A program made the position numbers and the translations under genes. A stretch of 16,084 nucleotides of DNA from Muribaculaceae bacterium (GTDB taxonomy: Bacteria; Bacteroidota; Bacteroidia; Bacteroidales; Muribaculaceae). Where the stretch lies: positions 1 through 16,084 of the forward strand of contig JAIDPP010000249.1 in assembly GCA_029062725.1 (NCBI GenBank), given 5' to 3'. Under the pieces are notes generated by a model. That model saw only the letters and a list, made by a program, of their open reading frames with translations. It made no database searches and was not told the origin of the DNA. Shown here piece by piece: positions 1 to 16,084 of this stretch. The stretch's first letter is position 1. The number at the start of each line of letters is the position of its first letter.

Positions 1-4
1 CCGA

Positions 5-991
5 TCAGCTCTCGATCACGTCGGGGTAGATGGTGCCCTGGGCAAGCCAGCGGGCGTTTTCAATCTTCTTCGCCTCCGCGTTGAAGACCTCAACGAAATC
101 GCGGCCGATGATCTTGCGTTTCTGCTCCGGATCCGTCACTCCCTTAAGGTCATTATAGAAGCGCTCCGAGGCATCCACTCCGATCACATTTAGTCCCATT
201 CCCTTATAGGATTCAAGCACCTCGTCAAACTCGTTTTTGCGAAGCAAGCCGTTGTTGACGAATATACATGTCAGCTGAGATCCGATAGCTTTGTGAAGCA
301 GCATGGCTGCCACAGAGGAATCGACACCCCCGGAGAGGCCGAGTATCACGCGCTCGTCGCCAATCTTGGCCTTCAGCTCTTCTACGGTAGTCTCGATGAA
401 TGAGGCCGGGCTCCACGTGCCCGAGCAGCCGCAGATGCCGAGCACGAAGTTGGAGAGAAGCAGTGTGCCATCCGTGGAATGATACACTTCCGGATGGAAC
501 TGTATTCCCCATGTCTGCTCCCCTTCGATATGGTAGGCCGCGTATTTTACGTTCTCTGTCGATCCTATTATCCGGTAGGTATCGGGAGCGTAGGTGATTG
601 TGTCGCCGTGGCTCATCCATACCTGCGTAGGGGAGGGGAGACCCTTCATAAGGGCATCCTCCGGATCAGTTACCGTAAGCATTGCGCGACCATACTCGCG
701 TGAGGGAGCACCCTCAACCTCGCCGCCGTATTCATTGGCGAGAAGCTGCGCGCCGTAGCAGACGCCCAGCAGAGGGAGTTTCCCCTTGATGCCGCTCAGG
801 TCAGGTTTCGGAGCCTCCGTATCGCGGACTGAGGATGGCGATCCTGAAAGAATCACTCCCTTCGTATCGGCGTCCGGCTCCGGAAAATGATTGAAAGGAT
901 GGATCTCGCAATATACGTTGAGCTCGCGCACGCGACGCGCGATCAGCTGGGTATATTGGGATCCGAAATCTATGATTAATATCTTTTCCAT
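5..991 (-). CDS. guaA: GMP synthase (glutamine-hydrolysing), C-terminally truncated at window edge
   Basis: This gene encodes XMP aminase, which converts XMP to GMP with glutamine and ATP, the last step of the guanine branch. Residues 1-190 are a class I glutamine amidotransferase with the nucleophile Cys78 (LLGVCYGAQ) and the pair His166/Glu168 (FHPEV). From about residue 200 comes the ATP-pyrophosphatase domain, with its P-loop SGGVDSS at 220-226. The frame stops with TGA right after YPDVIES, residue 328. Full-length family members have about 505-525 residues, so the end of the ATPase domain and the whole dimerisation domain are missing. Only four bases lie beyond the stop, so a nonsense mutation, a frameshift and a sequence-end error cannot be told apart. 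The start ATG lies 9 bp after the guaB stop, making this the last gene of the purine operon. The identity is certain; whether it is intact is not. Confidence 0.93.
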
Positions 992-1000
992 GTCTTGTAT

Positions 1001-2476
1001 TTACGCTTCGCGTCGTGAATAGTTGGGAGCCTCCTTGGTGATGGTCACGTCGTGGGGATGGTTCTCGGTCACGCCCGCCGAGGTGATCTTGGTGAATTTG
1101 GCATTATGCAGGGCGTCGATATCCTTGGCACCGCAGTAGCCCATACCGGAGCGCAGACCCCCGGTGAGCTGGTAGATGGTCTCGCTCAGCGTGCCTTTGT
1201 AAGGTACGCGGGCTACGATTCCCTCCGGAACGAACTTGCCTGAATCCACTTTCTCGGACTGGAAATATCGGTCCTTGGAGCCTGCCTCCATAGCCTCTAC
1301 GGAACCCATTCCGCGGTAGGCCTTGAATTTACGGCCGTTGTAGATTATTGTCTCGCCGGGGGATTCCTCAACGCCGGCGAACATCGAGCCCATCATCACG
1401 CAGTCGCCACCGGCGGCAAGGGCCTTAACCACATCGCCTGAATAGCGGAGACCGCCGTCGGCGATCACGGGCACGCCGTAACCATGAGCCACCTTGGCTA
1501 CTTCGAAGATTGCCGAAAGCTGCGGCACGCCCACACCGGCCACGATACGGGTGGTGCAGATCGAACCGGGCCCGATACCGACTTTCACGCCGTCTGCACC
1601 GGCCTCGATAAGATGTCGGGCCGCCTCTCCGGTGGCTATGTTGCCCACCACTACGTCCAGGTTCGGATAAGCCTCCTTCACCTTCTTGAGCGTGTTGGCC
1701 ACGTTGGCGGAATGTCCGTGAGCCGTATCGATGACCACGGCATCAACATCTGCCTCCACAAGCGCTTTTACGCGATCGAGCGTGTCGCTTGTCACTCCGA
1801 CGCCGGCCGCCACGCGGAGACGCCCCTTGGAATCCTTGCATGCCATGGGATAATCCTGCACCTTGGTGATGTCGCGGTAGGTGATCAGGCCTAAGAGATG
1901 TCCGTTATTGTCAACCACCGGAAGCTTCTCGATCTTGTTTTTGAGAAGGATGTCGGCGGCCGACGCAAGGTCGGTGCGGTTGGTGGTTACAAGATTTTCG
2001 GTGGTCATCACGTTCTCGATCTTCAGGTCCATATCCTTCTGGAAACGCAAATCACGGTTGGTGACGATGCCGATCAGCTTGTTCTCGTTGTCAACCACCG
2101 GGATACCGCCTATTCGGTTGTCGTGCATCAGCTGCAGCGCCTCCCCTACGGTCTGTTCCTTGGAAATGGTCACGGGATCGTAGATCATTCCGCTCTCGGC
2201 GCGTTTTACCTTTCTGACCTGAGCCGCCTGATCGGCGATCGACATGTTCTTGTGGATAACGCCGATACCCCCCTCGCGGGCGATGGCGATAGCCAGGGCG
2301 GCCTCCGTTACGGTATCCATGGCCGCCGATACGAAGGGGATATTGAGGGGGATGTTACGGGAGAAACGACCCGAGAGGGAAACCATGTTGGGAGTCACCT
2401 CTGAATAGGCCGGAATAAGAAGCACGTCGTCGAAGGTCACTCCTTCGAGCACGATTTTTTCATCTATAAATGCCAT
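1001..2476 (-). CDS. guaB: IMP dehydrogenase
   Basis: Oxidises IMP to XMP with NAD+, the committed step to GMP. The 491 residues match the usual bacterial length. The (beta/alpha)8 catalytic barrel is interrupted at about residues 95-205 by a pair of CBS (Bateman) repeats, each ending in an IP/LPVVDN-type strand (near 125 and 185); these usually bind ATP/GTP and tune activity. The catalytic loop [10 protein letters not shown] (301-310) holds the nucleophile Cys307. The phosphate-binding segment GGLRYSGD is near 341-348. The mobile flap carries the Arg403-Tyr404 pair in KDRYFQ, which activates water. All catalytic elements are present. The ATG lies 7 bp after the purA stop, and guaA follows after 9 bp, so the two GMP-branch enzymes are made together. 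Confidence 0.97.
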
Positions 2477-2483
2477 CTCAGTA

Positions 2484-3776
2484 TCAGAATTGTTTTAGTT
2501 TTTCGTCTATGATGATTGTTTGTTTGCGGTCGGGGCCGACGGAGATTATGCCTACCTTCACACCGGTAAGCTCCTCTATCTTTCTGACGTAGGCTTTCGC
2601 CGTCTCGGGGAGCGCGTCGAAATCCTTGATATCCGAAAGGTCTTCTTTCCAGCCTTCCATCTCTATGAGCACCGGCTTGCAGCGTGCGAGCTTGGAGACA
2701 GTCGAAGGGGGATAGTCGATCACCTTGCCGTCGAGTTCATATCCGGTGCATATCGACACCTTGTCAAGACCTGAGAGCACGTCAAAGAGCATCAGCGCCC
2801 AATTGTCAATACCGGCCAGACGGCTTGTATATCGTGCCACAACGGCGTCGAACCATCCTATCCGGCGCGGGCGTCCCGTGACGGTCCCGTATTCATGGCC
2901 TCTCTCGCGGATCTGATGGGCACGCTCGTCGAAGAGCTCGGTCGGAAATGCTCCCTCGCCTACGCGGGTGCAATAAGCTTTAGCCACACCCACCACCTCG
3001 TCGATCCATTTCGGAGAGATTCCTGCCCCTACCGGCACAGAAGCCGATGAAGGGGTAGAGGAGGTCACGTAAGGATATGTGCCGTGGTCGATGCAGAGCA
3101 TCATCCCCTGCGCGCCTTCGAAAAGAATCTTGGCCTCGGTATGTAGGGCGCGGTTGATGAGGTCGGAAGTGTCGCAGATGCGCGGCCCGAGTATCTTAGC
3201 TATCTCCATATAGCGGTCATACACCTCTTGGAAATCATATTCCGGAAGGCCTAAGAGACGCAGCTGCGGGTTCTTGACGGCTAAGGCTCCACGCAGACGT
3301 CCGGCGAAATATTCCGGCTCGAGGAGGTCGCCCATGCGGAGGCCGTCGCGGCTGTATTTGTCGCAATAGGCCGGCCCTATGCCGTTCTTGGTCGTGCCGA
3401 TTAGGGCGTTCCCCTTGAGGGTCTCGTAGGCGCCGTCAAGCTGACTGTGCCAGGGCATGACCATCGCCGCCCGGTCCGAGATATAGAGCTGGTAATCCGT
3501 GATTCCCTGCTCGTGGAGTTTCTCAAGCTCGGTGATCACCGATTCCGGATTGATAACCATGCCGTTGGCCATCACGTTCACTATTCCGGGATTGAAGATG
3601 CCCGATGGTATCGAGCGCAGGGAATATTTATGGCCGTCGAACACTACGGTATGACCGGCGTTGTTTCCTCCCTGGTATCTCACTACCATATCCGCGCGGC
3701 ACGCGAAATAATCGGTGATCTTTCCTTTTCCCTCATCGCCCCACTGGGAGCCGATCACTACTAATCTCTGTGACAT
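2484..3776 (-). CDS. purA: Adenylosuccinate synthetase
   Basis: Joins IMP and aspartate with GTP to give adenylosuccinate, the first step of the AMP branch. The product has 430 residues, normal for the family. The N-terminal signature QWGDEGKGK holds the catalytic Asp14 and Lys17. The GNNAGHTV segment supplies His42, the second catalytic residue. The IMP/GTP sites are seen as SSTPSSASVPVGAG and the guanine-binding region near the end (SVGPDRKQ). The TGRPRRIGWFD motif is also intact. The purA ATG (3774-3776) shares one base with the purB TGA (3776-3778), a TGATG overlap that suggests translational coupling. The next gene is guaB, so the two enzymes competing for IMP are encoded side by side. 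Confidence 0.97.
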   Translation of the reverse strand: MSQRLVVIGSQWGDEGKGKITDYFACRADMVVRYQGGNNAGHTVVFDGHKYSLRSIPSGIFNPGIVNVMANGMVINPESVITELEKLHEQGITDYQLYISDRAAMVMPWHSQLDGAYETLKGNALIGTTKNGIGPAYCDKYSRDGLRMGDLLEPEYFAGRLRGALAVKNPQLRLLGLPEYDFQEVYDRYMEIAKILGPRICDTSDLINRALHTEAKILFEGAQGMMLCIDHGTYPYVTSSTPSSASVPVGAGISPKWIDEVVGVAKAYCTRVGEGAFPTELFDERAHQIRERGHEYGTVTGRPRRIGWFDAVVARYTSRLAGIDNWALMLFDVLSGLDKVSICTGYELDGKVIDYPPSTVSKLARCKPVLIEMEGWKEDLSDIKDFDALPETAKAYVRKIEELTGVKVGIISVGPDRKQTIIIDEKLKQF

Positions 3777-5074
3777 CAGTCTTCGATTTTATTGCGTTTG
3801 TAAATATAATCTACATTCTTCATATAGTAGTCGAGCGTGAAGCAAGCGTCGAGTTCCTCCTCCGTCAGCGCACCGGTCACCGTAGGGTCTTCCTTAAGGA
3901 GGTCATGATATGCCGAATTGGTGGCCATGGCCTTCATGGCGATAGGCTGCACGGTATCGTAGGCCTTCTCGCGGGCGAAACCCTTACCGATAAGGGCGTT
4001 CATCACGCGTTGCGCGAAGATGACGCCGTTGGTCATGTAGATGTTGCTCTTCATGCGGTCCTCGAACACCACGAGGTTCTCGAGGATGCCTCCCATGCGG
4101 TTGAGCATGTAGTCGAGCAGGATGGTGGCATCGGGCATAAGTATGCGCTCGGTGGCGGAGTGGGATATATCGCGCTCGTGCCAGAGAGCCACGTTGTCGT
4201 AGCAGGTCATCATATATCCCCGCAGCACTCTCGCACAGCCGCAGATATTCTCCGAGGAAATCGGGTTACGCTTGTGAGGCATCGCACTCGAGCCTTTCTG
4301 GCCCTTTCCGAATGCTTCCTCCACTTCGTGGACCTCCGTGCGCTGTAGATTGCGGATCTCAAGGGCCATCTTCTCGAGAGAGGCGCCGATCAGGGCGATG
4401 GTTGCCATGTAATATGCGTGGCGGTCGCGCTGGATCACCTGAGTGGAGATGTTGGAGCTCTCGATGCCGAGTTTGTCGCATACGAAATCCTGCACAAAAG
4501 GAGGAATGTTGGCGAAGTTGCCTACAGCTCCCGAGATCTTTCCTACCTCCACGCCGCGGGCAGCCTCCTTGAAGCGTTTCAGGTTGCGACGCATCTCCTC
4601 ATACCATAGAACCCACTTAAGGCCAAAGCTTGTGATGTCGGCGTGGATGCCGTGCGTGCGGCCGATGCAGGGGGTATATTTATACTTTATGGCCTGCTTG
4701 CGGAGGATCTCGATATAATTTTCGATATCGGCTAAGAGGATTTTGTTGGCCTGAAGGAAGAGGTAGCCGTTGGCCGTATCTACTACGTCGGTAGATGTCA
4801 GGCCGTAATGAACCCATTTCCTTTCCTCGCCGAGCGATTCGCTCACGGCGCGTGTGAAGGCCACGATATCATGGCGTGTCTGGAGTTCGATTTCCTTGAT
4901 GCGCGCTATATCGAATTTAGCGTTGGCGCGGAGTTTTTCCACATCCTCACGAGGCACTACCCCTAACTCGCACCATGCTTCGGCGGCGAGGATCTCCACT
5001 TCGAGATAGGCCTTGAATTTATTCTCTTCTGTCCAAACCTGACGCATTATGTCGCGCCCGTATCTTTCTATCAT
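3776..5074 (-). CDS. purB: Adenylosuccinate lyase
   Basis: Cleaves fumarate from SAICAR in the IMP pathway and from adenylosuccinate on the way to AMP, so it acts twice in purine synthesis. It belongs to the fumarase/aspartase superfamily and has 432 residues, the short bacterial form. The superfamily signature [11 protein letters not shown] lies at 261-271, with the catalytic serine in this flexible loop. The other active-site patches are [12 protein letters not shown] from His89 and GRTHG with His141. The start ATG follows an A/C-rich leader (CAACAACAATG) with no Shine-Dalgarno motif, as is usual in Bacteroidetes. It lies 22 bp after purD and overlaps purA by one base. Confidence 0.97.
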
Positions 5075-5096
5075 TGTTGTTGTCTGATTGCTGTTG

Positions 5097-6347
5097 TTAT
5101 GAAAGTTTTATTGCGGCCTTGCCGATGTCGGTGCGATGGAAGAGGGCGTTGCAGTCGATCTTGTCCAGACTTTCCATCGCCTCCTTGCGGGCCTCCTCGA
5201 GGGTGGCGCCTTTACCGGTTACCATAAGGACGCGGCCGCCTGCGGTCTGAAGTTTTCCATCCTTGAGGGCAGTCCCCATGTGATAGAGGCCGCTCTCCAC
5301 CTTATCAAGCCCTTTTATCTCGGCTCCTTTCTGATAGCTGCCGGGATAACCTTTCGAGGCAAGTACCACTCCGAGCACGGCATCCTTGTCCCATTCCGTG
5401 GTGAAGTCCTCTCCCTTCAGGGCGGCGTCGAAGAGGGCATAGATGTCGCTCTTGAGGCGTGGAAGCACAACTTCCGTCTCCGGATCGCCGAAGCGGGCGT
5501 TGAACTCGATCACCTTCGGTCCCTCGTCGGTCAGGATAAGTCCTCCGTAGAGAATACCGGTGAAACTGTTCCCCTCGCTTACGAGACCCTTGGCCACAGG
5601 CTCCATTATCTCCTTCAGGGCACGCGTCTTCACGTCGTCACCGATGAAGGGCACTGGCGAGTAGGCGCCCATGCCTCCCGTGTTGGGACCCTTGTCGCCG
5701 TCGTAGGCGCGTTTATGGTCCTGCGCCAGCTCGAGAGGATAGACCTTATCCCCCGACACCACGCACATGAAGCTGAATTCCGGACCTTCAAGGAAATCCT
5801 CGATCACAACCCTTCCCTTTCCGAAGGCGGAGTCGAGAAGCATATCTTTCAGGGCGGCGTCGGCCTCTTCAAGCGACATGGCCACCACCACACCCTTACC
5901 GGCCGCCAGGCCGTCATATTTGATAACTATAGGTATCCTGCCGGCTTCGACGTATGCCTTCGCTTCCTCATAATTGTCGAAGGAGCGGTAGCCCGCGGTC
6001 GGGACGCCGTAGCGGTCCATCACCTGCTTGGCATATTCCTTGGAGCTCTCGATACGTGCAGCCTCTTTGGTCGGACCGAAAATTTTCAGTCCGCGCTCGT
6101 TGAAGAGATTGACCACCCCGGCGGCAAGCGCCGCCTCGGGACCTACTACGGTCATGTCGATTCCCTCGCTTTCGGCGAAGTCGGCCAGCGCCTCGATATC
6201 GGTCACCCCGATATTGACACATTCTGCCAGTCGCGCGATCCCGGCGTTACCCGGCGCGCAATATATTTTATCTACCTGAGGGCTACGGCTCAGAGCCTCC
6301 ACGATGGCGTGCTCGCGTCCCCCGCTTCCGATTACCAACGCTTTCAT
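5097..6347 (-). CDS. purD: Phosphoribosylamine-glycine ligase (GAR synthetase)
   Basis: Joins phosphoribosylamine and glycine with ATP to form GAR, the second step of the de novo pathway. The 416 residues are laid out as in the family: an N-terminal Rossmann-like part starting with [14 protein letters not shown], an ATP-grasp core from about residue 105, and a C-terminal domain. The signature [12 protein letters not shown] is at 220-231, and the metal-binding [10 protein letters not shown] is at 281-290. It is a stand-alone enzyme, not the eukaryotic-type fusion with PurM/PurN; purM is a separate gene upstream in this operon. It starts 4 bp after the purH stop, so the two are very probably cotranscribed. 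Confidence 0.97.
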
Positions 6348-6351
6348 CAGA

Positions 6352-7881
6352 TCAGTGCTTGAAATGGCGCATGCCGGTGAAGAGCATTGTTATTCCTTTC
6401 TCATTGGCCTTCTTGATGGCATCCTCATCGCGGATAGACCCGCCGGGCTGTACGATCGCCGTCACGCCGTATCTGGAAGCAAGTTCCACCGTGTCGTCGA
6501 AGGGAAGGAAGCCGTCCGAAGCGAGAACCAGACCTTCGGTAAGTCCTGCGGCTTTTGCCTCCTCGAGTGCGATATGAGCCGAACCGACGCGGTTCATCTG
6601 ACCTGCGCCTACACCGGCCGTCGCACCGTCCTTCACCACCACGATAGCGTTGGATTTAACATGTTTAACTACCTTCCAGCCGAAATTGAGGTCAACGAGC
6701 TGCGCTGCCGTCGGCTTCACCTCAGTGACGCACATATCCTCCGTGATCTCCTTACATTCCAGATCGGCGTCCTGCACCAGGAGGCCGCCCGTAACGCCCA
6801 CATACTGTTTCTGCTTCTTGTCGGATTTCTCCATGTTGACTTCGAGCAGGCGGAGGTTCTTCTTGCTTGCCAGCACCTCCAGAGCCTCAGGCTCGAACGC
6901 CGGAGCCATTACGATCTCGAGGAAGATAGGCTTCAGAAGTTTCGCTGTCTCTGCGTCCAGAGGACGGTTCATGGCCACGATACCGCCGTAGATCGATACC
7001 TTGTCGGCTTCGTAGGTCTTCTCCCAGGCCTCTTTGATAGTGGAGCCGATGGCCGCTCCGCAGGGATTCATGTGCTTGAGGCCGAGACAGAAAGGAGCCT
7101 CGAACTCGCGCACGAGCTGCAGAGCCGCGTTGGCGTCCTGTATGTTGTTGTAGGAAAGTTCCTTACCGCCGAGCTGCTTTGCGAAAGCCACCGAATAGGG
7201 CACTTCCTCCTCGGCGCGGTAGAACATGGCGTTCTGATGAGGATTCTCGCCGTAACGGAGACTCTGTACAGCGTCGAACGTAAGGAAGAGTTTCTCGTCA
7301 AGACCGGCCTGCTTGCGCATGTAGGTGGCTATCATGCTGTCGTATTCCGCCGTGTGGGTATAGGCTTTTGCCGAGAGCTTGAAGCGTGTCTCATACTCTG
7401 TATGGCCGTTGGCGCGGAGCTCGTCGAGCACTTTGCCGTAATCGTCCGGATCGCAGACTACCGTAACATCGCGGAAATTCTTGGCTGCGGAGCGCAGCAT
7501 TGACGGACCGCCTATGTCGATATTCTCCACTGCATCTTCGAGAGTGACGTCCTTCTTGGCGATGGTGGCCGCGAAGGGGTAGAGATTCACGCAGACCATC
7601 TCGATGGTCTCGATGCCGTTGGCCTCAAGCTGCTCCATGTGGGCGGCTAAGTCGCGGCGTCCCAAAAGACCGCCGTGAACCTTCGGATGAAGGGTCTTGA
7701 CGCGGCCGTCGCAGATTTCGGGGAAACCTGTCACGTCGCTGATGTTGATCACTTCTATGCCTGCCTCGCGGAGTTTGGTCATCGTTCCGCCGGTGGCGAT
7801 GATGTCCCAGCCAAGCTCTTTCAGGGCTTTGGCGAATTCCACTATGCCGCGCTTGTCGCTTACGCTGATTAATGCTCTCAT
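6352..7881 (-). CDS. purH: Bifunctional AICAR formyltransferase / IMP cyclohydrolase
   Basis: Carries out the last two steps to IMP: AICAR to FAICAR with 10-formyl-THF, then ring closure. The N-terminal cyclohydrolase domain (about 1-195) shows SDKRG at 8-12, KTLHPKVHGG at 62-71 and IGGPSMLRSAAKN at 123-135. The C-terminal transformylase domain shows RYGENPHQ at 209-216 and the catalytic Lys269-His270 in LKHMNPCG. I chose the ATG at 7879-7881 (MRALISVSDKRG; 509 residues) because family proteins begin there. An in-frame ATG at 7923 would add 14 residues read from the repeat array. The leader just before the chosen start is A/T-rich (AAAAATTTAAATATG). This is the only operon gene preceded by a long gap, which holds the 10-bp array. 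Confidence 0.96.
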   Translation of the reverse strand: MRALISVSDKRGIVEFAKALKELGWDIIATGGTMTKLREAGIEVINISDVTGFPEICDGRVKTLHPKVHGGLLGRRDLAAHMEQLEANGIETIEMVCVNLYPFAATIAKKDVTLEDAVENIDIGGPSMLRSAAKNFRDVTVVCDPDDYGKVLDELRANGHTEYETRFKLSAKAYTHTAEYDSMIATYMRKQAGLDEKLFLTFDAVQSLRYGENPHQNAMFYRAEEEVPYSVAFAKQLGGKELSYNNIQDANAALQLVREFEAPFCLGLKHMNPCGAAIGSTIKEAWEKTYEADKVSIYGGIVAMNRPLDAETAKLLKPIFLEIVMAPAFEPEALEVLASKKNLRLLEVNMEKSDKKQKQYVGVTGGLLVQDADLECKEITEDMCVTEVKPTAAQLVDLNFGWKVVKHVKSNAIVVVKDGATAGVGAGQMNRVGSAHIALEEAKAAGLTEGLVLASDGFLPFDDTVELASRYGVTAIVQPGGSIRDEDAIKKANEKGITMLFTGMRHFKH

Positions 7882-7910
7882 ATTTAAATTTTTATTTATT
7901 CTGGATTTGT

Positions 7911-8040
7911 TATGATGCATCATGTTTTATCATGTCGCATCATGTTTTATCATGTCGCATCATGTTTAATCATGGTTCATCATGGTTCATCATGTTGCAA
8001 CTTGGCTGATCATGTTGCATCAAGATAAATCTTGAATCAT
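7911..8040. repeat. Tandem 10-bp repeat array between purM and purH
   Basis: Thirteen consecutive 10-bp units in strict register, with plus-strand consensus CATGnnnnAT. The unit starts run from 7911 to 8031 in steps of 10. The two-unit block CATGTTTTATCATGTCGCAT occurs twice without change (7921-7960), and CATGGTTCAT occurs twice in a row (7971-7990). Units decay towards purM (CTTGGCTGAT, CAAGATAAAT, CTTGAATCAT), and the last one contains the purM stop codon at 8037-8039. A small inverted repeat, CAAGAT-AA-ATCTTG, lies at 8021-8034. The array fills most of the 155-bp gap and ends about 30 bp before the purH start. Ten is not a multiple of three, so it is not a coding repeat. Its role is unknown. 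Confidence 0.9.
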
Positions 8041-9068
8041 CTTATTGTGACGCCACCCTTTTCGGATTCCACGACCTTGCCTATCACGGATGCTTTCTCT
8101 CCCTGTTCGGTCAGGATCTCCAGGGTGCGCGCCGCGTCTTCGGGCTTCACCGCCAATACCATTCCTATGCCCATATTGAATATGTTGAACATCTCGCGGT
8201 GTGGAATCTTACCCTGTTTCTCAAGAAGACGGAACACCGGAAGGATCTCCCAGCTTCCCTCTTCGATCTCAACTCCCTGACCCTCCTTGAGGATCCGGGG
8301 GATATTCTCATCGAAGCCGCCGCCCGTGATGTGGGCCACGCCATGGACGTCAACCTCCTTAAGCACCGCCAATACCTGTTTCACGTAGATTCTGGTCGGA
8401 GTGAGGAGCATCTCGCCGAGGGTCTGCTCACCGGTTTCTTCATATTTCTGGTCATACTCGAGGAAAGCGTCGCTAATCACCTTTCTTACGAGAGAGAAGC
8501 CATTGGAGTGGACGCCGCTTGATGCGATGCCGATAAGAAGGTCGCCGGGAGCCACTTTGGAGCAGTCGATGAGTTTCGATTTCTCTACCACTCCTACCGT
8601 GAAGCCGGCGATGTCGTATTCCCCTACTGTGTACATGCCGGGCATCTCGGCCGTCTCGCCGCCTACCAGCGCGCAACCTGCCTGACGGCATCCTTCGGCC
8701 ACTCCGGCCACGATTGCCTCGACCACCTCCGGATGGTTCTTGCCTACGGCCACATAGTCGAGGAAGAGGAGAGGCTCGGCGCCCTGGGCCAGGACATCGT
8801 TGACACACATAGCCACGGCGTCAATGCCGATGGTGTCGTGCTTCTCGAGCGCGAATGCTATCTTAAGCTTGGTCCCTACGCCGTCGGTACCGCTCACCAG
8901 GACGGGATGCTCGTAGCCGAGGCTCCCGAGATCGAACATCCCTCCGAAGGAGCCGATGTTGCCCATGCTCCCGGCACGCTCCGTGCTCTTCACATGCTTC
9001 TTGATGCGGCTTACCACTTCATATCCGGCCTCGAGGTTCACGCCGGACGCTTCATAACTTTTTGCCAT
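8037..9068 (-). CDS. purM: Phosphoribosylformylglycinamidine cyclo-ligase (AIR synthetase)
   Basis: Closes the imidazole ring: FGAM plus ATP gives AIR, the fifth step of the pathway. The 343 residues are the normal bacterial length. The glycine-rich segment GSFGGMFDL is near 39-47, the nucleotide/metal-binding TDGVGTK at 61-67, and the family segment [13 protein letters not shown] at 88-100. [10 protein letters not shown] appears in the C-terminal half. It is an AIRS-type enzyme, related in fold to the central part of PurL, whose gene ends 12 bp before it. The final codons and stop run into the first, degenerate unit of the 10-bp array, so array growth or loss could reach this gene's end. Confidence 0.97.
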
Positions 9069-9080
9069 ATATCGTTGTCT

Positions 9081-12000
9081 TTATTTCCTGAAATATTTTA
9101 CTGCGTTTCCGAAAAGGTTCTGCTCCTTGTTTCCGTGGATGTTCTTCATCAGTCCCTCATGGTAACGTTCCGAATGAGCCATCTTGCCTAAGATGCGTCC
9201 ATCGGGGGAGATGATTCCCTCAATCGCGTCCGTCGAGCCGTTGGGATTGTAGGGTGAAGTCATTGTGGCGTGGCCCGTCGGGTCGGCATACTGGAAGGCG
9301 ATCTGCCCGTTGTCGAAGAGTTTTGCGGCAAGCTCCGGAGATGCGGTGAATTTACCCTCTCCGTGGGAGGCGGCCACGCTGTGTAGCTCCCCGATTGTGA
9401 AGCCGTCGAGCCAGGGAGAAGCCACGGAGGCCACCCTTGTGGTCACTATCTGCGAGATATGACGGTTGATGTCGTTGTGGAAAAGAGTGGGGGAGTCGGC
9501 CGAAAGATCGCCGATCCTGCCGTAGGGGAGCAGTCCCGATTTCACCAGTGCCTGGAAGCCGTTGCAGATTCCCAGGATGAGGCCTCCGCGGCCCATGAGG
9601 CGTTCTATAGCGCTCTTTACGGTAGCGTTCATGATCACTGTGGCAATGAATTTACCGCTGCCGTCAGGCTCGTCGCCGGCCGAGAAACCGCCGCTGAAGG
9701 CCAGGATCTCGCAGTTGTCGATATGATCGGCCATCTCCTTGACGGAGGCCTCGATATCGGCCGCCGTCAGGTTGCGGAATACGCTGCTCGAAACCTCCGC
9801 TCCCTCTTTCTCGAACGCTTTCCACATATCGTAGTCGCAGTTCGTGCCCGGGAATACGGGAAGATAGACCCTCGGATGCTCGATCGGTTCTCCGGGCCAT
9901 ACCGTCGTGTTCGGCCCCGACGAGGCGTTGGCGGTTTCGCCTGTCACGCCACTGCGGTCGGGATAGACCTTGGTGAAACGCTCGCTGTTGGCGTTGCGGG
10001 CTTCTTCTATCGTGATCTTTTCGCCATTGATTGTCAAAGTCTTGTCGGCTACCGTCTTGCCTATCATTAGTGCATTCGCGATCCCGAGGCCTTCCTTTGC
10101 CTCCACGAGGATCGAGCCGTTGCCCGAGGCGAAGAGGTCGCGGTCGTCGAGGTTGATTTCCGCCCCGATTTCATTTCCGAAGCTCATCTTGGCCACGGCC
10201 TCCCCGACGCCTCCGAAGTCTATGGCGTAGGCGGCTACGATGTTGCCGTTATGGATATTCTCCGTCACCCCGTCGAAGATCTCCTTCAGCTGCTCCGTGC
10301 AGGGAGTGAGGTCGGCGTGGGGTATATGTTGCAGCAGATAGAGTTCATGTCCCGCCTCCTTGAATTCCGGAGAGATCACCTTGCGGGCGTCCACCGGAGC
10401 CACTCCGAAGGCTATCAGCGTCGGAGGCACGGATATTTTATCGAAAGTTCCGCTCATCGAGTCCTTGCCGCCGATGGAGGCAAGTCCGAAGTCAAGCTGC
10501 ATCCGCAGTGTTCCGAGGAGTGCCGCCAGAGGTTTTCCCCAGGCCTTTTCGCTGTTCATGCGCTCGAAATATTCCTGATAGGAGAATCTCATGCGCGGAT
10601 ATTCGGCTCCCGCGGCCACAGCCTTGGCGATTGCCGAGATCACGGCATATTGCGATCCGTGGAAGGGGCTCCAGCTGCTAAGATAGGGGTTGAAGCCGTA
10701 GGCCATCATGGAAGCCGTGTTGGTATGGCGGTTACCGACCGGAAGTTTCTGCACCGATACCTGTGTCTCCGTTCCCTGCGTCTTTCCGCCGAAAGGCATA
10801 AGCACCGTCGAAGCGCCGATCGAGGAGTCGAACATCTCGATAAGGCCTTTCTGGGAGGTCACGTTGTCGTCGGCGAGGTTGCTGAGGAATCTTTCGCGCA
10901 GAGTCGCTCCCTTCGGGGTGCGTACGAAGGCATCCTGCGGCTCAACGGCTCCGATCTTCACCTTTGCATAATGGCGTGCGCCCGCCGAGTCGATGAAGTC
11001 ACGGCGCAGATCGGCCACCGGCTCGCCGTTATAATACATCCTCATGCGTCCGCTGTCGGTCACGTCAGCCACATGGCGTATCTCAAGGTTCTCCTCAGCA
11101 CAGTATTTCTCGAATTCCTCCTTATCCTTTGCCTCGACCACCACCGACATTCGCTCCTGCGATTCGGAGATTGCGAGTTCCGTGGCGTTCAGGCCGCTGT
11201 ATTTTGTCGTCACGCGGTCGAGATATATGTCGAGGCCGTCGGTAAGCTCACCGATCGCCACGCTCACGCCACCGGCTCCGAAGTCATTTGATTTCTTTAT
11301 CAGTCGCGTCACCTCCGGACGGCGGAAGAGCCTTGCTATCTTGCGCTCCTCCGGGGCGTTTCCTTTCTGCACCTCGCTGCCGCACTCCTCAAGGGAGCTG
11401 GTGTTGTGTTCCTTTGAAGAACCGGTTGCTCCGCCGATGCCGTCGCGGCCCGTGCGACCTCCGAACATCAGGATCACGTCGCCCGGTTCGGGGCGTTCTC
11501 GGCGCACGTCGTCGGCTTTCACGGCTCCGACCACGGCTCCGACTTCAAGACGCTTTGCCACATATCCGGGATGGTAAATCTCGCGCACATGCGTCGTGGC
11601 CAGACCGATCTGGTTGCCGTAGCTGGAATAGCCGGCGGCCGCGCGGAGCGAGATGACACGCTGCGGGAGTTTCCCCTCCATAGTCTCGCCGACAGGGAGA
11701 TAGATGTCGCCGGCACCGGTCACGCGCATAGCCTGATATACGTAGCTGCGGCCGCTCAGCGGGTCGCGGATCGCACCGCCGAGACAGGTGGACGCACCGC
11801 CGAAAGGCTCGATCTCCGTCGGATGGTTATGGGTCTCGTTCTTGAATTGCAGTAGCCAACGTTCAGTAGCGCCGTCAACATCCACATCCACGTATATGGA
11901 GCAGGCGTTGTTCTCCTCGCTCTGCTCGAGGTCGTCGAGAAGGCCCTCCTTGCGCAGATAGCGGGCGCCTATTGTGGCGAGATCCATCAGGCAGAGCGAT

Positions 12001-12782
12001 TTGTTCTCGCGGCCCAGCGCTTTGCGGATCTCCTTCCATTGCTCCACGCTCTCCCTGAGCTTTCCGGCCAAGGGGGAATCTTCGACCTCGATATCGGTCA
12101 GCTCGGTAGTGAAGGTGGTATGGCGGCAATGGTCGCTCCAGTATGTGTCAAGGATGCGCAACTCCGTCTCGTTGGGGTCGCGACCCTCCTCGTTGAAATA
12201 TCTTACAACCTCCATCAGGTCGTCGCCGTTCATCGCCAGTCCTTTCTCCTTGCAGTAGGCCGGCGCCTGCTCCGCAGTGATTGAGCGGAATCCCTCGAGG
12301 ATCTCCACAGGCTTGGCGTGGGCGCGGTCGGGACGCGCGAGGATGTCGAGGTTCTTCTCCCTCGACTCCACGGCGTTGATGGTGTATTTCGCTATTTTCT
12401 TAAGCTCCTCCTCTCCCACGGAGTCGTCGAAGATCATCATGGTCGCGCTGCTGATCTCCACGTCGGCGTCGGGCTGAAGGAGATTCACACATTCGCGGGC
12501 CGAAGCCGCACGCTGGTCGAACTGTCCCGGGAGGCACTCCACGGCCAGGAAGGGTCGGCCCGAGGTCTCTACCGAGTCGCTGACGGTATCGGTGGCCGGC
12601 TCGCCGAACACTTTGTAGCGGCTCTTCTCGATAAGTTCCGGAGTGAAGCCGAAGAGATCATAAACGCATAGGAAACGCATCTCCTTGATGTCAAGCCCGA
12701 GGTTGGAATTGAGTTCCTTGCGGAGGCTTTCGGCCTCGATGCGGTAGGGATCGCGTTTCTCGACAAATAAGCGGTGGTTCAT
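9081..12782 (-). CDS. purL: Phosphoribosylformylglycinamidine synthase, large single-chain type
   Basis: Converts FGAR to FGAM using glutamine and ATP, the fourth step. This is the large fused type found in Proteobacteria, Bacteroidetes and eukaryotes, not the PurS/PurQ/PurL complex. In order: an N-terminal PurS-like domain, a linker with WSDHCRHTTF at 215-224, two AIRS-like halves starting with ETHNHPTEIEPFGG near 316, and a C-terminal glutaminase. The glutaminase nucleophile is Cys1073 (LGICNGFQ), with His1203/Glu1205 in MAHSER as the likely partners. I chose the ATG at 12780-12782 (MNHRLFVEKRDPYR; 1233 residues). An upstream in-frame ATG at 12869 would run 50 bp back into purE and add a tail unlike the family. 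It lies 37 bp after purE, with a CAACAACA-rich leader. Confidence 0.97.
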   Translation of the reverse strand: MNHRLFVEKRDPYRIEAESLRKELNSNLGLDIKEMRFLCVYDLFGFTPELIEKSRYKVFGEPATDTVSDSVETSGRPFLAVECLPGQFDQRAASARECVNLLQPDADVEISSATMMIFDDSVGEEELKKIAKYTINAVESREKNLDILARPDRAHAKPVEILEGFRSITAEQAPAYCKEKGLAMNGDDLMEVVRYFNEEGRDPNETELRILDTYWSDHCRHTTFTTELTDIEVEDSPLAGKLRESVEQWKEIRKALGRENKSLCLMDLATIGARYLRKEGLLDDLEQSEENNACSIYVDVDVDGATERWLLQFKNETHNHPTEIEPFGGASTCLGGAIRDPLSGRSYVYQAMRVTGAGDIYLPVGETMEGKLPQRVISLRAAAGYSSYGNQIGLATTHVREIYHPGYVAKRLEVGAVVGAVKADDVRRERPEPGDVILMFGGRTGRDGIGGATGSSKEHNTSSLEECGSEVQKGNAPEERKIARLFRRPEVTRLIKKSNDFGAGGVSVAIGELTDGLDIYLDRVTTKYSGLNATELAISESQERMSVVVEAKDKEEFEKYCAEENLEIRHVADVTDSGRMRMYYNGEPVADLRRDFIDSAGARHYAKVKIGAVEPQDAFVRTPKGATLRERFLSNLADDNVTSQKGLIEMFDSSIGASTVLMPFGGKTQGTETQVSVQKLPVGNRHTNTASMMAYGFNPYLSSWSPFHGSQYAVISAIAKAVAAGAEYPRMRFSYQEYFERMNSEKAWGKPLAALLGTLRMQLDFGLASIGGKDSMSGTFDKISVPPTLIAFGVAPVDARKVISPEFKEAGHELYLLQHIPHADLTPCTEQLKEIFDGVTENIHNGNIVAAYAIDFGGVGEAVAKMSFGNEIGAEINLDDRDLFASGNGSILVEAKEGLGIANALMIGKTVADKTLTINGEKITIEEARNANSERFTKVYPDRSGVTGETANASSGPNTTVWPGEPIEHPRVYLPVFPGTNCDYDMWKAFEKEGAEVSSSVFRNLTAADIEASVKEMADHIDNCEILAFSGGFSAGDEPDGSGKFIATVIMNATVKSAIERLMGRGGLILGICNGFQALVKSGLLPYGRIGDLSADSPTLFHNDINRHISQIVTTRVASVASPWLDGFTIGELHSVAASHGEGKFTASPELAAKLFDNGQIAFQYADPTGHATMTSPYNPNGSTDAIEGIISPDGRILGKMAHSERYHEGLMKNIHGNKEQNLFGNAVKYFRK

Positions 12783-12819
12783 TATTGTAGTCAGTATGTT
12801 GTTGCGTATGGTATCAGGT

Positions 12820-13287
12820 TTATTCGTTGTTTGCCAGGACTCCGGCTGCCTGTTCGGCGCGGAAGGCATTGAGTTTCTCCTTCAGGTCGGCGTCGGTAAC
12901 GGCAAGTATCTCGATTGCGAGGAGGGCGGCGTTCTTGGAGCCGTCGATAGCCACTGTCGCCACCGGGATTCCGCTCGGCATCTGCACCATCGAAAGCAGC
13001 GAGTCGAGGCCTTCGAGGGAGCGGGATTTTACCGGCACGCCGATTACGGGGAGCGTCGTGAACGCCGCCACTACTCCTGCCAGATGGGCGGCGCCTCCGG
13101 CGGCTGCGATCACGGCACCGAATCCACGCTCGCGCAAGGATGTTACCCACGCTTCGAGTTCGCGGGGAGTGCGGTGGGCGCTGTAAATTTTTTGTTCGTA
13201 CTCTACGCCGAATCTGGCCAGGGTCTCTCCGGCGCCCTTCATCACTCCGAGGTCGCTGGCAGATCCCATTACAATTCCTACTTTCAT
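12820..13287 (-). CDS. purE: N5-carboxyaminoimidazole ribonucleotide mutase (PurE)
   Basis: Makes CAIR, the sixth step. The 155 residues show the complete PurE set: MGSASD at 7-12, SAHRTP with the catalytic histidine near 41-46, AGGAAHLAG near 88-96, and the segment [20 protein letters not shown]. The length and motifs resemble the class I enzyme, which normally uses N5-CAIR made by PurK; no purK is in the window, so the substrate is inferred. It is the first gene of the operon and lies behind a long structured leader. The start ATG comes 3 nt after the stop of a 19-codon ORF (13291-13350), a spacing that would allow reinitiation or coupling. Confidence 0.96.
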
Positions 13288-13290
13288 CTT

Positions 13291-13350
13291 CTACCTGAAA
13301 TATTTTATATTGCCGTCCGATGGCCGAGCCAAGGAGCGGCGCCTTTTCAT
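13291..13350 (-). CDS. Possible 19-residue leader peptide directly upstream of purE
   Basis: A short ORF reads MKRRRSLARPSDGNIKYFR and stops with TAG three bases before the purE ATG. Its ATG follows the A-rich stretch CCAAAAGAAAATG, a favourable Bacteroidetes initiation context, and begins just after the U-tract of the terminator, so it is transcribed only when the terminator is read through. The last codons share 14 identical bases (TAAAATATTTCAGG in the coding sense) with the end of purL, giving KYFR in both. No homologue is recognised. It may be a translated coupling peptide or a chance ORF; conservation in relatives would decide. Confidence 0.4.
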   Translation of the reverse strand: MKRRRSLARPSDGNIKYFR

Positions 13351-13366
13351 TTTCTTTTGGTTAGTT

Positions 13367-13415
13367 AAAATAAAAATTTTGCGCGCGTCAGTCTTTTTCG
13401 CCTGACGCGCGCAAA
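13367..13415 (-). terminator. Intrinsic terminator in the purE leader
   Basis: On the minus strand the arms TTTGCGCGCGTCAG (13402-13415) and CTGACGCGCGCAAA (13378-13391) form a perfect 14-bp stem with a 10-nt loop. It is followed at once by ATTTTTATTTT (13367-13377), a strong U-tract. It lies 80 nt before purE and 123 nt after the ATPase stop. It could simply end ATPase transcription, but the consensus promoter at 13533-13564 lies upstream of it, so purine transcripts must pass it. That makes it a likely attenuator. On the plus strand the stem is followed by AAACTTATCC, so it is not a plus-strand terminator. Confidence 0.88.
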
Positions 13416-13424
13416 CTTATCCTG

Positions 13425-13514
13425 TTATGTTTCAGCACACTCCGCCATTATGCCCGGATGTTTTCGCTTCCGGGAAGATGTTAAGGCGGATATGTGACCT
13501 ATATGCTGAATCAT
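13425..13514 (-). CDS. Possible 29-codon leader ORF overlapping the nested hairpin
   Basis: An ATG at 13512-13514, about 13-15 nt after the predicted transcript start, opens a 29-codon frame beginning MIQHIGHISA and ending GIMAECAET. It stops with TAA at 13425-13427. The frame covers almost exactly the P1-P3 hairpin, and its stop falls in the loop of the proposed antiterminator, 10 nt before the terminator stem. A ribosome translating it would open P1-P3 and could mask the terminator's 5' arm. There is no run of codons pointing to a sensed amino acid. It may equally be a chance reading of a structured RNA. Confidence 0.25.
   Translation of the reverse strand: MIQHIGHISALTSSRKRKHPGIMAECAET
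13429..13510 (-). promoter_or_regulatory. Nested hairpin with competing antiterminator: candidate riboswitch or attenuator
   Basis: Three helices nest in the transcript. P1 pairs 13501-13510 with 13431-13440 (TTCAGCA/TGCTGAA plus three more pairs, two of them G-U). P2 pairs 13485-13490 with 13441-13446 (TCCGCC/GGCGGA). P3 pairs 13469-13474 with 13453-13458 (CCCGGA/TCCGGG), capped by a 10-nt loop, AGCGAAAACA. A 10-nt bulge, AGGTCACATA, lies between P1 and P2 on the 5' side. An alternative pairing of 13429-13440 with 13407-13416 (AAAC/GTTT plus GTGTGC/GCGCGC, with a 2-nt bulge) would break both P1 and the terminator. P1 and the terminator can therefore form together, while the antiterminator excludes both, as in an OFF switch. 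No known riboswitch class is recognised. Confidence 0.6.
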
Positions 13515-13532
13515 TTCAATCCATTTGAATTG

Positions 13533-13564
13533 CAAAATTACGTATTTTTTTCGCAATTAGCAAA
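13533..13564 (-). promoter_or_regulatory. Bacteroidales-type promoter for the purine operon
   Basis: On the minus strand, TTTG (13561-13564), a 20-bp spacer and TAATTTTG (13533-13540) match the Bacteroidales consensus TTTG-N19-21-TAnnTTTG exactly. The first three bases of the -7 box are the TAA stop codon of the upstream ATPase gene, so the promoter lies inside that gene's 3' end. Transcription should begin near 13527-13529, giving a leader of about 240 nt before purE. No other match to TAnnTTTG was found between here and purE. Confidence 0.7.
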
Positions 13565-15136
13565 TTTTTCAGAATTTACCTTTTTTACTTTCCACCCGTC
13601 TATACGTCTTTTTTCGGATGAATAATTGATGCCTATCTCTATAACGATGCGGCTGTCGATGGCCCAGGGGAGGGCATATTCCTTGCGTTCTATCTGCTCA
13701 AGAGCCTCTTCGGGTGTGCCGTCATATTTCAGCTCCATTATATATACATAATCCCTTGTCCTCACAAGGATGTCGATACGGCCGTCGGAAGTTCTTACTT
13801 CGGCATCCACATTCAGTCCGATAAGGGAGAAGAGGATAAGGAAAGCGTTCTGAACGTTGCGCTCCTCTTCAAACCGCATGTCATATCCTATGCCGGCAAA
13901 CATCGACTCCAGACGCTTCATAAAGGCTTCCACACGCCCCTCTTCCATCTCATCAAGGAAGTCAAAGACAAATACCCTGACATCGTTGGTGCGCATGTTG
14001 GAATAGTAGGGCAATAGAAATTCAAAGAAACCCTGCTTCACCTCTATGTTAGGCAAACCTAACCGATAAAGTTGCCTTCGTGGATCATAATCCTTGATGG
14101 TAAGGTAACCGGTCTGGTAGAAAAGTGATTCAGGAGAGATATTATCGATATCAAGCCCGCGAAGCGCGTTCCTGCCGCATCTGATATTAAGAAACTTAGT
14201 GAGGTCGGTTTTGGTCCGTTTAAGCTGTTCTACCAATAATGTCGGCGTACCCGATGAAATCCAATAGTTGTCATAGTATTTATCGGCCAACACATGCAAA
14301 ATGGAGAAGGGATTGTATATATCCGGAGATTTTTCTGAGAAATGGTAACCATCATACCAGCGTTTTAGCATGGCAACCACTTCATCGTAACTATTACCCG
14401 ACTCTTCTCCCAAATCTTCAATTCCTTGTTGAAAATTAGACAGCAGTTCCTCTTCTGTGACTCCGCATATAGCTGAATATTGAGGCAGGAAGGAAATATC
14501 GCTAATATTGTTCAGTCCCGAAAAGACACTGAGTTTTCCGAATCTGCTCACCCCTGTCAGGAAAACGAGCCTGATATACTCGGCCGAACTCTTGAAGTTG
14601 GAATAGAATGTAGCTAATTTATCGCGATACATCTCAAACCGTTGGCGGTTGTGGATGTTGTTGACCAGTGGCTTGTCATATTCATCAACCAATATCACGA
14701 CCCTTTTCCCGGTTGTTTCATACATTCCCTTTATCAGATTGGAGAACCTGACGGAATGATCTTGCTGAGCCGGCGTGATATCATATTCCTTCTCCTTTAT
14801 GGAGAGAAAATTTTCTATCAGGATATCTAAGTTATTCTCCTCCTTATATTGCTGGTTATTAAGGTCAAGATGCAATACAGGGTAAGGTTCCCAATCCCAG
14901 TCTGTTGTATCGATATAGAGACCCTTGAACAGCTCGCGTTTCCCCTCGAAGAAGCATTTCAGTGTGGAGAGGAAAAGGCTTTTTCCGAAACGGCGGGGGC
15001 GGCCTAAGAAATAGTATTGGGATCCATTGATGATTTTTTCAATGAAAAGGGTCTTATCCACGTAAATAAAGTTTCCTTTTCGAAGGCTTTCAAAAGATTG
15101 TTCACCAATCGGATATTTCACCATTCTTTTCTCCAT
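13538..15136 (-). CDS. AAA-ATPase-like protein with C-terminal PD-(D/E)XK nuclease-like domain
   Basis: The 532-residue product matches the AAA-ATPase-like family (N-terminal AAA-ATPase_like, C-terminal PDDEXK_9), which is expanded in Bacteroidetes genomes and has no settled function. It opens with YPIGEQSFESLR and YVDKT, typical of the family. The atypical Walker A is GRPRRFGKS (45-53), Walker B is VVILVDEYD (146-154), and LTGVSRFGK (193-201) follows. Near the end, Asp455 in GRIDI and Glu468-Leu-Lys470 form a PD-(D/E)XK-like active site that looks intact. I chose the ATG at 15134-15136; the frame is open to 15256, but that part crosses the promoter and a hairpin. ATG 15122-15124 (MVKYPIGEQ) is an alternative. 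Its base composition is more A+T-rich than the flanking biosynthetic genes, which suggests acquisition. No partner gene lies beside it. Confidence 0.88.
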   Translation of the reverse strand: MEKRMVKYPIGEQSFESLRKGNFIYVDKTLFIEKIINGSQYYFLGRPRRFGKSLFLSTLKCFFEGKRELFKGLYIDTTDWDWEPYPVLHLDLNNQQYKEENNLDILIENFLSIKEKEYDITPAQQDHSVRFSNLIKGMYETTGKRVVILVDEYDKPLVNNIHNRQRFEMYRDKLATFYSNFKSSAEYIRLVFLTGVSRFGKLSVFSGLNNISDISFLPQYSAICGVTEEELLSNFQQGIEDLGEESGNSYDEVVAMLKRWYDGYHFSEKSPDIYNPFSILHVLADKYYDNYWISSGTPTLLVEQLKRTKTDLTKFLNIRCGRNALRGLDIDNISPESLFYQTGYLTIKDYDPRRQLYRLGLPNIEVKQGFFEFLLPYYSNMRTNDVRVFVFDFLDEMEEGRVEAFMKRLESMFAGIGYDMRFEEERNVQNAFLILFSLIGLNVDAEVRTSDGRIDILVRTRDYVYIMELKYDGTPEEALEQIERKEYALPWAIDSRIVIEIGINYSSEKRRIDGWKVKKVNSEKFANCEKNT

Positions 15137-15151
15137 ACCGCATCTTTTTTG

Positions 15152-15183
15152 CAAAGATAACTTATTTCTCCTTAAGACGCAAC
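15152..15183 (-). promoter_or_regulatory. Bacteroidales-type promoter for the AAA-ATPase gene
   Basis: On the minus strand, GTTG (15180-15183; three of four bases match TTTG), a 20-bp spacer and TATCTTTG (15152-15159; exact TAnnTTTG). The predicted transcript start near 15146-15148 leaves only about a 10-nt leader before the ATG at 15136. This supports the internal start over the longer open frame and suggests that the gene is transcribed independently of the ATCase gene. Confidence 0.6.
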
Positions 15184-15234
15184 TAATAAAGAAACCGGCA
15201 ACCCCTACGGGATAGAGCGTCGGCAGAAGAAACG

Positions 15235-15277
15235 ACCGGGAGTTCCACGCAAGCAAAGCGAGCGTGGAACTCCCGGT
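15235..15277 (-). terminator. Perfect 16-bp hairpin downstream of the ATCase gene, probable terminator
   Basis: ACCGGGAGTTCCACGC (15235-15250) and GCGTGGAACTCCCGGT (15262-15277) are exact inverted copies around an 11-base loop. On the minus strand the stem is followed by CGTTTCTTCT, a modest U-rich tail, and it lies 66 nt after the ATCase stop. This fits a terminator separating the pyrimidine gene from the ATPase gene. The tail is weak, so it could instead be an mRNA-stabilising 3' end or a dispersed repeat. The rest of the 206-bp gap (15137-15342) holds only the ATPase promoter; nothing else is recognised there. Confidence 0.6.
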
Positions 15278-15342
15278 TAAATAAAATGTAACCGCTCCGC
15301 GGTAATGCTTGTTAATGATGTTCTATTCCGTGGTAAAACTCA

Positions 15343-16084
15343 TTATTTCGCGGCTTTCGATTCACAATAGACGCAGCGGTAGATGCCGCTTCCGTCGGCT
15401 GCCGGTCGGAAGAGCCGTGGCACATTCTCCATGTTCGAGATGCAGCGGCGGTTGCTGCAATGATGTCCGTTCACTTCCGTCCCCTCGGGGATAAGGCGCT
15501 GTTTGTCATCACCTTCCGCGGCCCATTTCAGAAGAGTGAGTATCAGTGCCATACGTACGAATTTACCGTTCTCCACCTGACGGAAGTAAGCTGCCCTCGG
15601 GTCAGCATCGACCTCCACCGTGATTTCGTTCACGCGCGGCAGCGGATGAAGGATGCGCAGCTCCGGCTTCGCTGTCTCCAGTTTCTCTGGAGTCAGGATG
15701 AAGGCGTCTTTCACTCTGTCGAACTCATCCTCGTCGAGGAAACGCTCCTTCTGGACGCGTGTCATATATAACACATCCAGCTCCGGCATAACCTCCTCCA
15801 TCGTCTTCACCTCGCGGTAGGGGATGCCGTATTTCTCGCATACCTCATATTTCATGTAGTCGGGCAGGCGGAGTTCATCGGGAGCTATCAGGATCACCTC
15901 CACACCCTCGTAACGCGCCAGGGCCTTTATGAGCGAATGGACCGTGCGTCCGAAACGCAAGTCGCCGCAGAAGCCTATCTTGATATTATCGAAGCGGCCG
16001 ATTTCGCGCTTGATGGTCAGAAGGTCGGTGAGCGTCTGTCTCGTAACTCTGTTGGAGCCGTCGACGGCGGTGATCACCCGTATT
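15343..16084 (-). CDS. pyrB: Aspartate carbamoyltransferase with fused PyrI-type zinc domain, 5' partial
   Basis: Catalyses carbamoyl phosphate + aspartate to carbamoyl aspartate in pyrimidine synthesis. The window holds the C-terminal part; the start lies beyond the right edge. Counting from the valine codon GTG at 16075-16077, the aspartate-binding half is well conserved: GRTVHS at 43-48, YMTRVQKER at 104-112 and HPLPRVNEI at 144-152. After residue 185 comes a tail with Cys207-x4-Cys212 and Cys235-x2-Cys238 (CSNRRCISN, CVYC), closely matching the zinc domain of the E. coli regulatory chain PyrI; the PyrI nucleotide-binding domain is absent. Similar fused chains are known, for example in Thermotoga maritima. 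The usual carbamoyl-phosphate motif HPxQ reads VTRQ here (residues 11-14). The frame continues open to the window edge. Confidence 0.9.
   Translation of the reverse strand, partial: IRVITAVDGSNRVTRQTLTDLLTIKREIGRFDNIKIGFCGDLRFGRTVHSLIKALARYEGVEVILIAPDELRLPDYMKYEVCEKYGIPYREVKTMEEVMPELDVLYMTRVQKERFLDEDEFDRVKDAFILTPEKLETAKPELRILHPLPRVNEITVEVDADPRAAYFRQVENGKFVRMALILTLLKWAAEGDDKQRLIPEGTEVNGHHCSNRRCISNMENVPRLFRPAADGSGIYRCVYCESKAAK

Follow-up and report, generated by a model that had tools for sequence, protein, structure and literature searches.

The DNA analysed here, referred to as the window, comprises positions 1-16,084 (16,084 nucleotides) of contig JAIDPP010000249.1 in assembly GCA_029062725.1 of a Muribaculaceae bacterium. 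It carries, as an initial annotation had described, a nine-gene purine operon (5-13287), which runs entirely on the minus strand in the order purE purL purM purH purD purB purA guaB guaA. Among its open reading frames (ORFs), purE and purL were named by Pfam and the other seven by eye from their translations. The first gene, purE (12820-13287, from the ORF list and Pfam), is preceded by a promoter located where that annotation had placed it. Its -33 element TTTG (13561-13564, minus) and -7 element TAATTTTG (13533-13540, minus), spaced by 20 nt, conform to the consensus TTTG/TAnnTTTG quoted in PMC7366714, and the transcript probably starts near 13526. Further upstream on the same strand, an AAA-ATPase_like/PDDEXK_9 gene (13538-15256) lies between pyrBI and purE, and at 15343-16077 (minus) the aspartate carbamoyltransferase Asp/Orn-binding domain and the PyrI metal-binding domain lie within a single protein. 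Five of the seven group-A loci, the window among them, have the AAA-ATPase/PDDEXK_9 gene as the neighbour upstream of purE, and no other examined locus does; in the remaining two group-A loci, L087 and L091, pyrBI adjoins the purE leader.

The leader between promoter and purE folds into a very stable structure. The segment 13360-13530 of the minus strand reaches -62.7 kcal/mol (z -7.8), with none of 200 shuffles as low, and folding recovered the hairpins and the terminator of the initial annotation: P1 (13427-13514; 13501-13514 with 13427-13440), which encloses P2 (13485-13490 with 13441-13446) and P3 (13467-13474 with 13453-13460), and an intrinsic terminator (13371-13415, also found by a terminator caller) made of a hairpin at 13378-13415 and a U-tract. 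What had been missed is a leader ORF of 29 codons plus TAA, MIQHIGHISALTSSRKRKHPGIMAECAET, running on the minus strand from the ATG at 13514 to the TAA at 13425. It occupies the whole of P1-P2-P3, and 9 nt separate its stop from the terminator stem. Another small basic ORF, MKRRRSLARPSDGNIKYFR (13291-13350, minus), lies in the gap between terminator and purE, its stop 3 nt before the purE ATG.

The regulatory structure proposed earlier fared unevenly. The alternative pairing of 13429-13440 with 13407-13416, a possible antiterminator of ten pairs and one 2-nt bulge, can be drawn, but the best computed duplex has six pairs and -10.0 kcal/mol, against -15.4 for P1 and -26.1 for the terminator. 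When the seven group-A leaders are aligned, most of them have a gap or no pairing at the two outermost of these ten pairs, and five of the seven cannot form the innermost pair of P2. The covariation that had been proposed as a check on P1-P3 is likewise missing from most of the structure: among these seven sequences, changes on both sides of a pair affect no pair in P1, none in P2 and none of the ten in the antiterminator, and they affect two pairs in P3. Consensus folds of groups A, B, C and D yielded no fold common to all, and P1-P3 is not shared. The initial annotation recognised neither a purine nor a ZTP riboswitch consensus, and Rfam searches gave nothing at threshold in the window region and no match at gathering score in ten loci; the lowest E-value in the window, 0.25, belongs to a YenS sRNA match that lies on the opposite strand and scores far short of that family's gathering threshold.

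Is the leader ORF translated? Its length is identical in all seven group-A leaders (window included), and in five of them, again including the window, pN/pS is 0.31 in frame compared with 1.1 and 0.96 in the other frames. The in-frame value is 0.60 across all seven group-A leaders and 0.63 in eleven group-D leaders (0.93 and 0.90 in the other frames), and six leaders of group B gave 0.93, no coding signal. The excess at codon position 3 is not significant (p 0.08 and 0.15), so that, with pN/pS of 0.6-0.93 in these other groupings, the coding evidence comes mainly from frame and stop position. Lysine and arginine together are enriched in frame in the genus set, at 20.4% where the other two frames have 14.5% and 13.2% (p 1.3e-7 and 4.2e-7 when only cluster representatives are counted), an enrichment that did not replicate in a second set (16.9% compared with 16.4% and 14.3%). 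Many of the genus leader peptides contain basic clusters such as RKRK, RRKP or RRLKR, the codons for RKRK lying at 13461-13472 (minus) in the window. The C-terminal residues vary between groups, the peptides as a whole differ beyond recognition from one group to another, and no codon run for a single amino acid was seen on reading them. The leader ORF is probably translated, and the pN/pS, third-position and lysine-arginine results together indicate that frame and stop position are kept, the peptide only loosely.

The position of the stop codon is the feature that recurs. Our first set consisted of 111 genomes of the window's genus, 99 of them with purE, and the DNA upstream of purE was used for 90 of the 99. 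Nine of these (L167-L175) were dropped because their purE is of another type and reading showed no comparable leader; of the remaining 81, 77 have the promoter motif and 64 of those a called terminator, while several of the 13 without a call show a terminator on reading. We looked for an ORF of at least 8 codons ending within -13 to +6 nt of the terminator base and compared the counts with 500 dinucleotide shuffles of the leaders. Such an ORF is present in 53 of the 64 leaders (shuffle mean 13.5, maximum 24), in 50 of 64 when only the longest ORF counts (mean 6.6, maximum 18) and in 44 of 54 cluster representatives (mean 11.2, maximum 19). Among the 11 leaders lacking it, L093, L095 and L135 have ORFs that run through the terminator, and L094 and L111 look like mis-called terminators. 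Stop offsets range only from -12 to +6 although ORF lengths span 10-83 codons; length and sequence vary while the distance from stop to terminator stays nearly constant.

The same layout was found in a second set. Its seeds were L203-L206, from three records titled Alistipes sp. and one titled Rikenellaceae bacterium. In the family of one seed genome (G283), 60 of 61 genomes have purE, and 30 of the 60 were taken as loci (L203, L207-L235). The 28 loci L203-L230 were tested, and L231-L235 were dropped for their other purE type and no leader on reading; for the seven of the 28 leaders without a promoter motif the last 330 nt were taken. All 28 form separate clusters. An ORF ending at the terminator occurs in 22 of them and is missing from six (shuffle mean 5.6, maximum 11), or occurs in 19 when the longest ORF is required (mean 2.9, maximum 7). 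As L203-L206 had already been inspected before this test (as L015, L004, L006 and L007), the count was repeated without these four and gave 18 of 24 (mean 4.8, maximum 10).

Some leaders reduce this layout to very little. Seven genus leaders (L125, L133, L137, L139, L145, L148, L159), by reading, have ORFs of only 3-14 codons, for example MKK, MKGK or MKRKTHLK followed by a stop, which lie directly after the promoter and end before or inside the terminator. They fall outside the 64 because the terminator caller found none in them, and they leave little room for an aptamer. A second -7 motif between terminator and purE (TAnnTTTG, the only motif sought) is absent from 62 of the 64 genus leaders and from all 28 of the second set, where chance would produce 1.6 in 64; this supports the part of the initial annotation that placed a terminator-controlled switch before the purine operon.

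Among the 30 genus loci L086-L115, all but L100 have purL adjoining purE and on the same strand (29 of 30). In the second set it lies within 100 nt in 10 of 28 loci, about 1.1-1.3 kb downstream in 16, and was not found in two. Upstream of purE, pyrBI is present within the locus in 18 of 28 loci of the second set and in two of 30 of the first. A second purE type of about 50-60% identity (L167-L175, L191-L202, L231-L235) shows no such leader on reading in L167-L175 and L231-L235 and has no purL within about 1.5 kb in all 12 loci L191-L202. In other genera of the window's family, purE is, among the matches listed, of the lower-identity kind. For comparison, no such leader was seen by reading up to 260 nt upstream of pyrB in 30 loci, of which L266, L276, L277 and L288 are uninformative.

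Two short motifs recur in the leaders. GTGTGC, at 13435-13440 (minus) within the P1 3' arm and the alternative pairing, occurs in 34 of the 64 genus leaders and 12 of the 28 in the second set, where shuffles average 2.2 and 2.0, and about half the leaders lack it. It is found in all three frames and hence acts as a nucleic-acid signal, perhaps a pause site for RNA polymerase, since its letters resemble what we take to be the elemental pause consensus; of 38 non-redundant occurrences 19 have a G at position -10, though G is found at -12 too. ACATATC, at 13489-13495 (minus), is read as xAC-ATA-TCx at codons 7-9 and turns up in 27 of the 64 and 4 of the 28 leaders, compared with 1.1 and 0.2 on average in shuffles. 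Its frame is identical in all 23 counted leader ORFs that carry it, the distance from the ATG being 16 or 19 nt for 22 of them and 40 nt in L158, where an upstream ATG was counted; in L224, of the second set, it stands in another frame by reading. The constancy of this frame goes beyond what coupling of transcription and translation alone explains. Queuosine is a product of GTP, and a link through the xAC codons (Tyr, His, Asn, Asp) was considered and set aside, as the same pattern is expected if the RNA letters of ACATATC are what is conserved.

Other purE leaders contain a conserved 5' element around the leader start codon, GGATA(T)TTGATAACCGAA...ATGAGGCAACCCCGAAACATATCC or close variants of it (L152, L158, L161, L164, L100, L104-L107, L114, L123, L124, L149 and L151; in the second set L226, L227 and L230). 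GGATA can pair with TATCC, with one compensatory case in L151, and the GGATA...ATATCC element is possibly a second regulatory layer. A covariance model of it, R1, has no match in the window; across 247 genomes of the order and under strict filters it gave two matches, both within unrelated coding sequence. The 14-mer CCCCGAAACATATC has five exact matches in the 111 genus genomes, four at purE leaders and the fifth 3' of pyrBI close to the end of a contig, at the place expected for purE.

Sequence comparison thus yields an ORF, a fixed stop position, a terminator, no second consensus promoter and recurrent motifs. The reading we lean towards, with some confidence, is that the leader is a ribosome-dependent transcription attenuator of pyrBI-like layout, with purine supply as its likely input. 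The leader transcript would encode a short peptide whose stop codon lies just before the base of the intrinsic terminator. A ribosome following closely behind RNA polymerase would cover or crowd the 5' arm of the terminator, keep the hairpin open and allow read-through into purE-guaA, whereas a polymerase running ahead would let the terminator close. Scarce GTP or ATP may slow or pause the polymerase in the leader, perhaps at GTGTGC, giving the ribosome time to close the gap and so turning the purine pathway on. Both this direction and purines as the signal are suggested by analogy with three kinds of published observation, which in combination lead us to a purine version. In E. coli, the ribosome represses almost completely a terminator that immediately follows a stop codon, termination recovers once more than about 27-30 nt separate the two, and the repression is lost on uncoupling (PMC4824070; Li et al. 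2016); all leaders with an ORF ending at the terminator as defined above fall inside that range. Coupling-based attenuation under UTP control is described for pyrBI (PMC10135430, PMC5021804), and at a consensus pause escaped by GTP in vitro, bypass fell from about 22% to 7% when GTP was lowered from 100 to 10 uM (PMC6336406). Short ORFs reminiscent of attenuators are also reported in 5' UTRs of B. thetaiotaomicron in PMC7366714, in whose accessible passages purine genes are not named. More broadly, literature searches on leaders, attenuators and riboswitches, covering passages of PMC7366714 and PMC4833913, turned up no purine operon with a leader peptide.

A ribosome could also act through the RNA fold, as in attenuators of the trp/his type, which we judge unlikely here though worth weighing. 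A ribosome stalled early, near the in-frame ACATATC, would cover the P1 5' arm, release 13429-13440 to pair with the terminator 5' arm and so permit read-through; a ribosome moving on, or none, would let P1 and the terminator form. Folding with ribosome footprints gives this some substance: placing the P site at codons 6-8 takes the pairing of the arms from 0.03 to about 0.5-0.6 in L089, L090 and L092, placing it at codon 5 takes that pairing from 0.24 to 0.8 in L086, and in the window, too, the antiterminator can be released by an early ribosome. Together with the single frame of ACATATC in 23 of 23 ORFs this fits an early stall, but L087 responds weakly and L088 not at all, and in L086 and L091 a ribosome in a late position increases the pairing as well. 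Over 41 leaders early stalls lift pairing from 0.42 to 0.49 (p 0.0004), exceeding mid positions in 28 of 41, a small mean effect obtained without a matched shuffled control. The antiterminator duplex falls far short of the terminator in stability and lacks compensatory changes, and with the stop abutting the terminator, a finishing ribosome would hinder the very hairpin that should form. Nor is there a codon run for one amino acid, or an obvious reason for purines to stall codons 7-9. A leader peptide that arrests its ribosome in response to a ligand, as TnaC and SpeFL do, and thereby decides the fate of the terminator is a quite improbable variant: the basic clusters and the lysine-arginine enrichment of the genus set speak for it, whereas that enrichment was not found again in the second set, the C-terminal residues differ by group, and by reading some ORFs have just 3-4 codons (MKK, MKGK). 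The 'peptide-sensing' RNA of the initial annotation came closer in that a leader peptide is encoded, but nothing shows that this peptide senses anything.

The metabolite-sensing riboswitch favoured by that annotation, with P1-P3 as the aptamer of an orphan class, has become very improbable. The great stability of the fold and the two compensated pairs of P3 are what it would have led one to expect, and the 5' element that other genus leaders and three leaders of the second set carry could itself be an aptamer. P1, P2 and the antiterminator, however, carry no compensatory changes, no Rfam family matches at threshold, the P1-P3 fold is not shared, and R1 has no match in the window; what recurs is the ORF at the terminator, down to leaders of 3-14 codons. 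Finally, the ORF might be a stand-alone small protein gene followed by its ordinary terminator, with purE expressed by constitutive leak or from a non-consensus promoter of its own. Stop codon and terminator are less than 50 bp apart for most bacterial genes (PMC4824070), which speaks for this reading, but the peptides differ beyond recognition between groups, and no -7 motif follows the terminator in 62 of the 64 leaders of the genus or in any of the 28 of the second set. The leader also goes with the purE type that has purL nearby, the other type being without purL within about 1.5 kb in the 12 loci L191-L202 and, on reading, without such a leader in L167-L175 and L231-L235. We regard this as a most improbable explanation.

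Among known systems, the PyrL-encoding pyrBI attenuator of E. coli is like the purE leader in serving a nucleotide biosynthesis operon, in setting a leader ORF against an intrinsic terminator and, on the reading favoured here, in having termination prevented by a close ribosome. The pyrBI leader ORF crosses its terminator, whereas in most purE leaders the ORF stops at the terminator base; the genes here are for purines, not pyrimidines, and there is no U-rich pause region. The trp and his attenuators share the leader ORF and, in the window, the 1:2, 2:3 and 3:4 pairing possibilities, yet the purE leader has no regulatory codon run, its stop abuts the terminator, and its 2:3 pairing is weak and uncompensated. 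In the tna leader with TnaC, a ribosome at or near the leader stop would similarly protect the RNA just downstream from termination, although here the terminator is intrinsic rather than Rho-dependent and the peptides have no common end. In other phyla, purine genes are under the control of purine (guanine), ZTP and PRPP riboswitches; here no Rfam family matches, and the shared feature is an ORF, not an aptamer.

A more specific proposal, which we put forward tentatively and hold doubtful in its full form, is that the leader is the purine counterpart of pyrBI in at least two Bacteroidales groups. GTP-dependent pausing at GTGTGC would let a ribosome on a fast-evolving leader ORF draw level with the polymerase and keep the terminator open, so that the whole pathway would respond to purine nucleotide levels with neither aptamer nor repressor, and in some members the conserved RNA element at the start codon would provide a second input. 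If the leader is indeed a recurrent translated attenuator, it would be a purine regulator for these bacteria and would extend nucleotide-sensing attenuation from pyrimidines to purines. It would also provide a natural reporter with which to test transcription-translation coupling in Bacteroidales.
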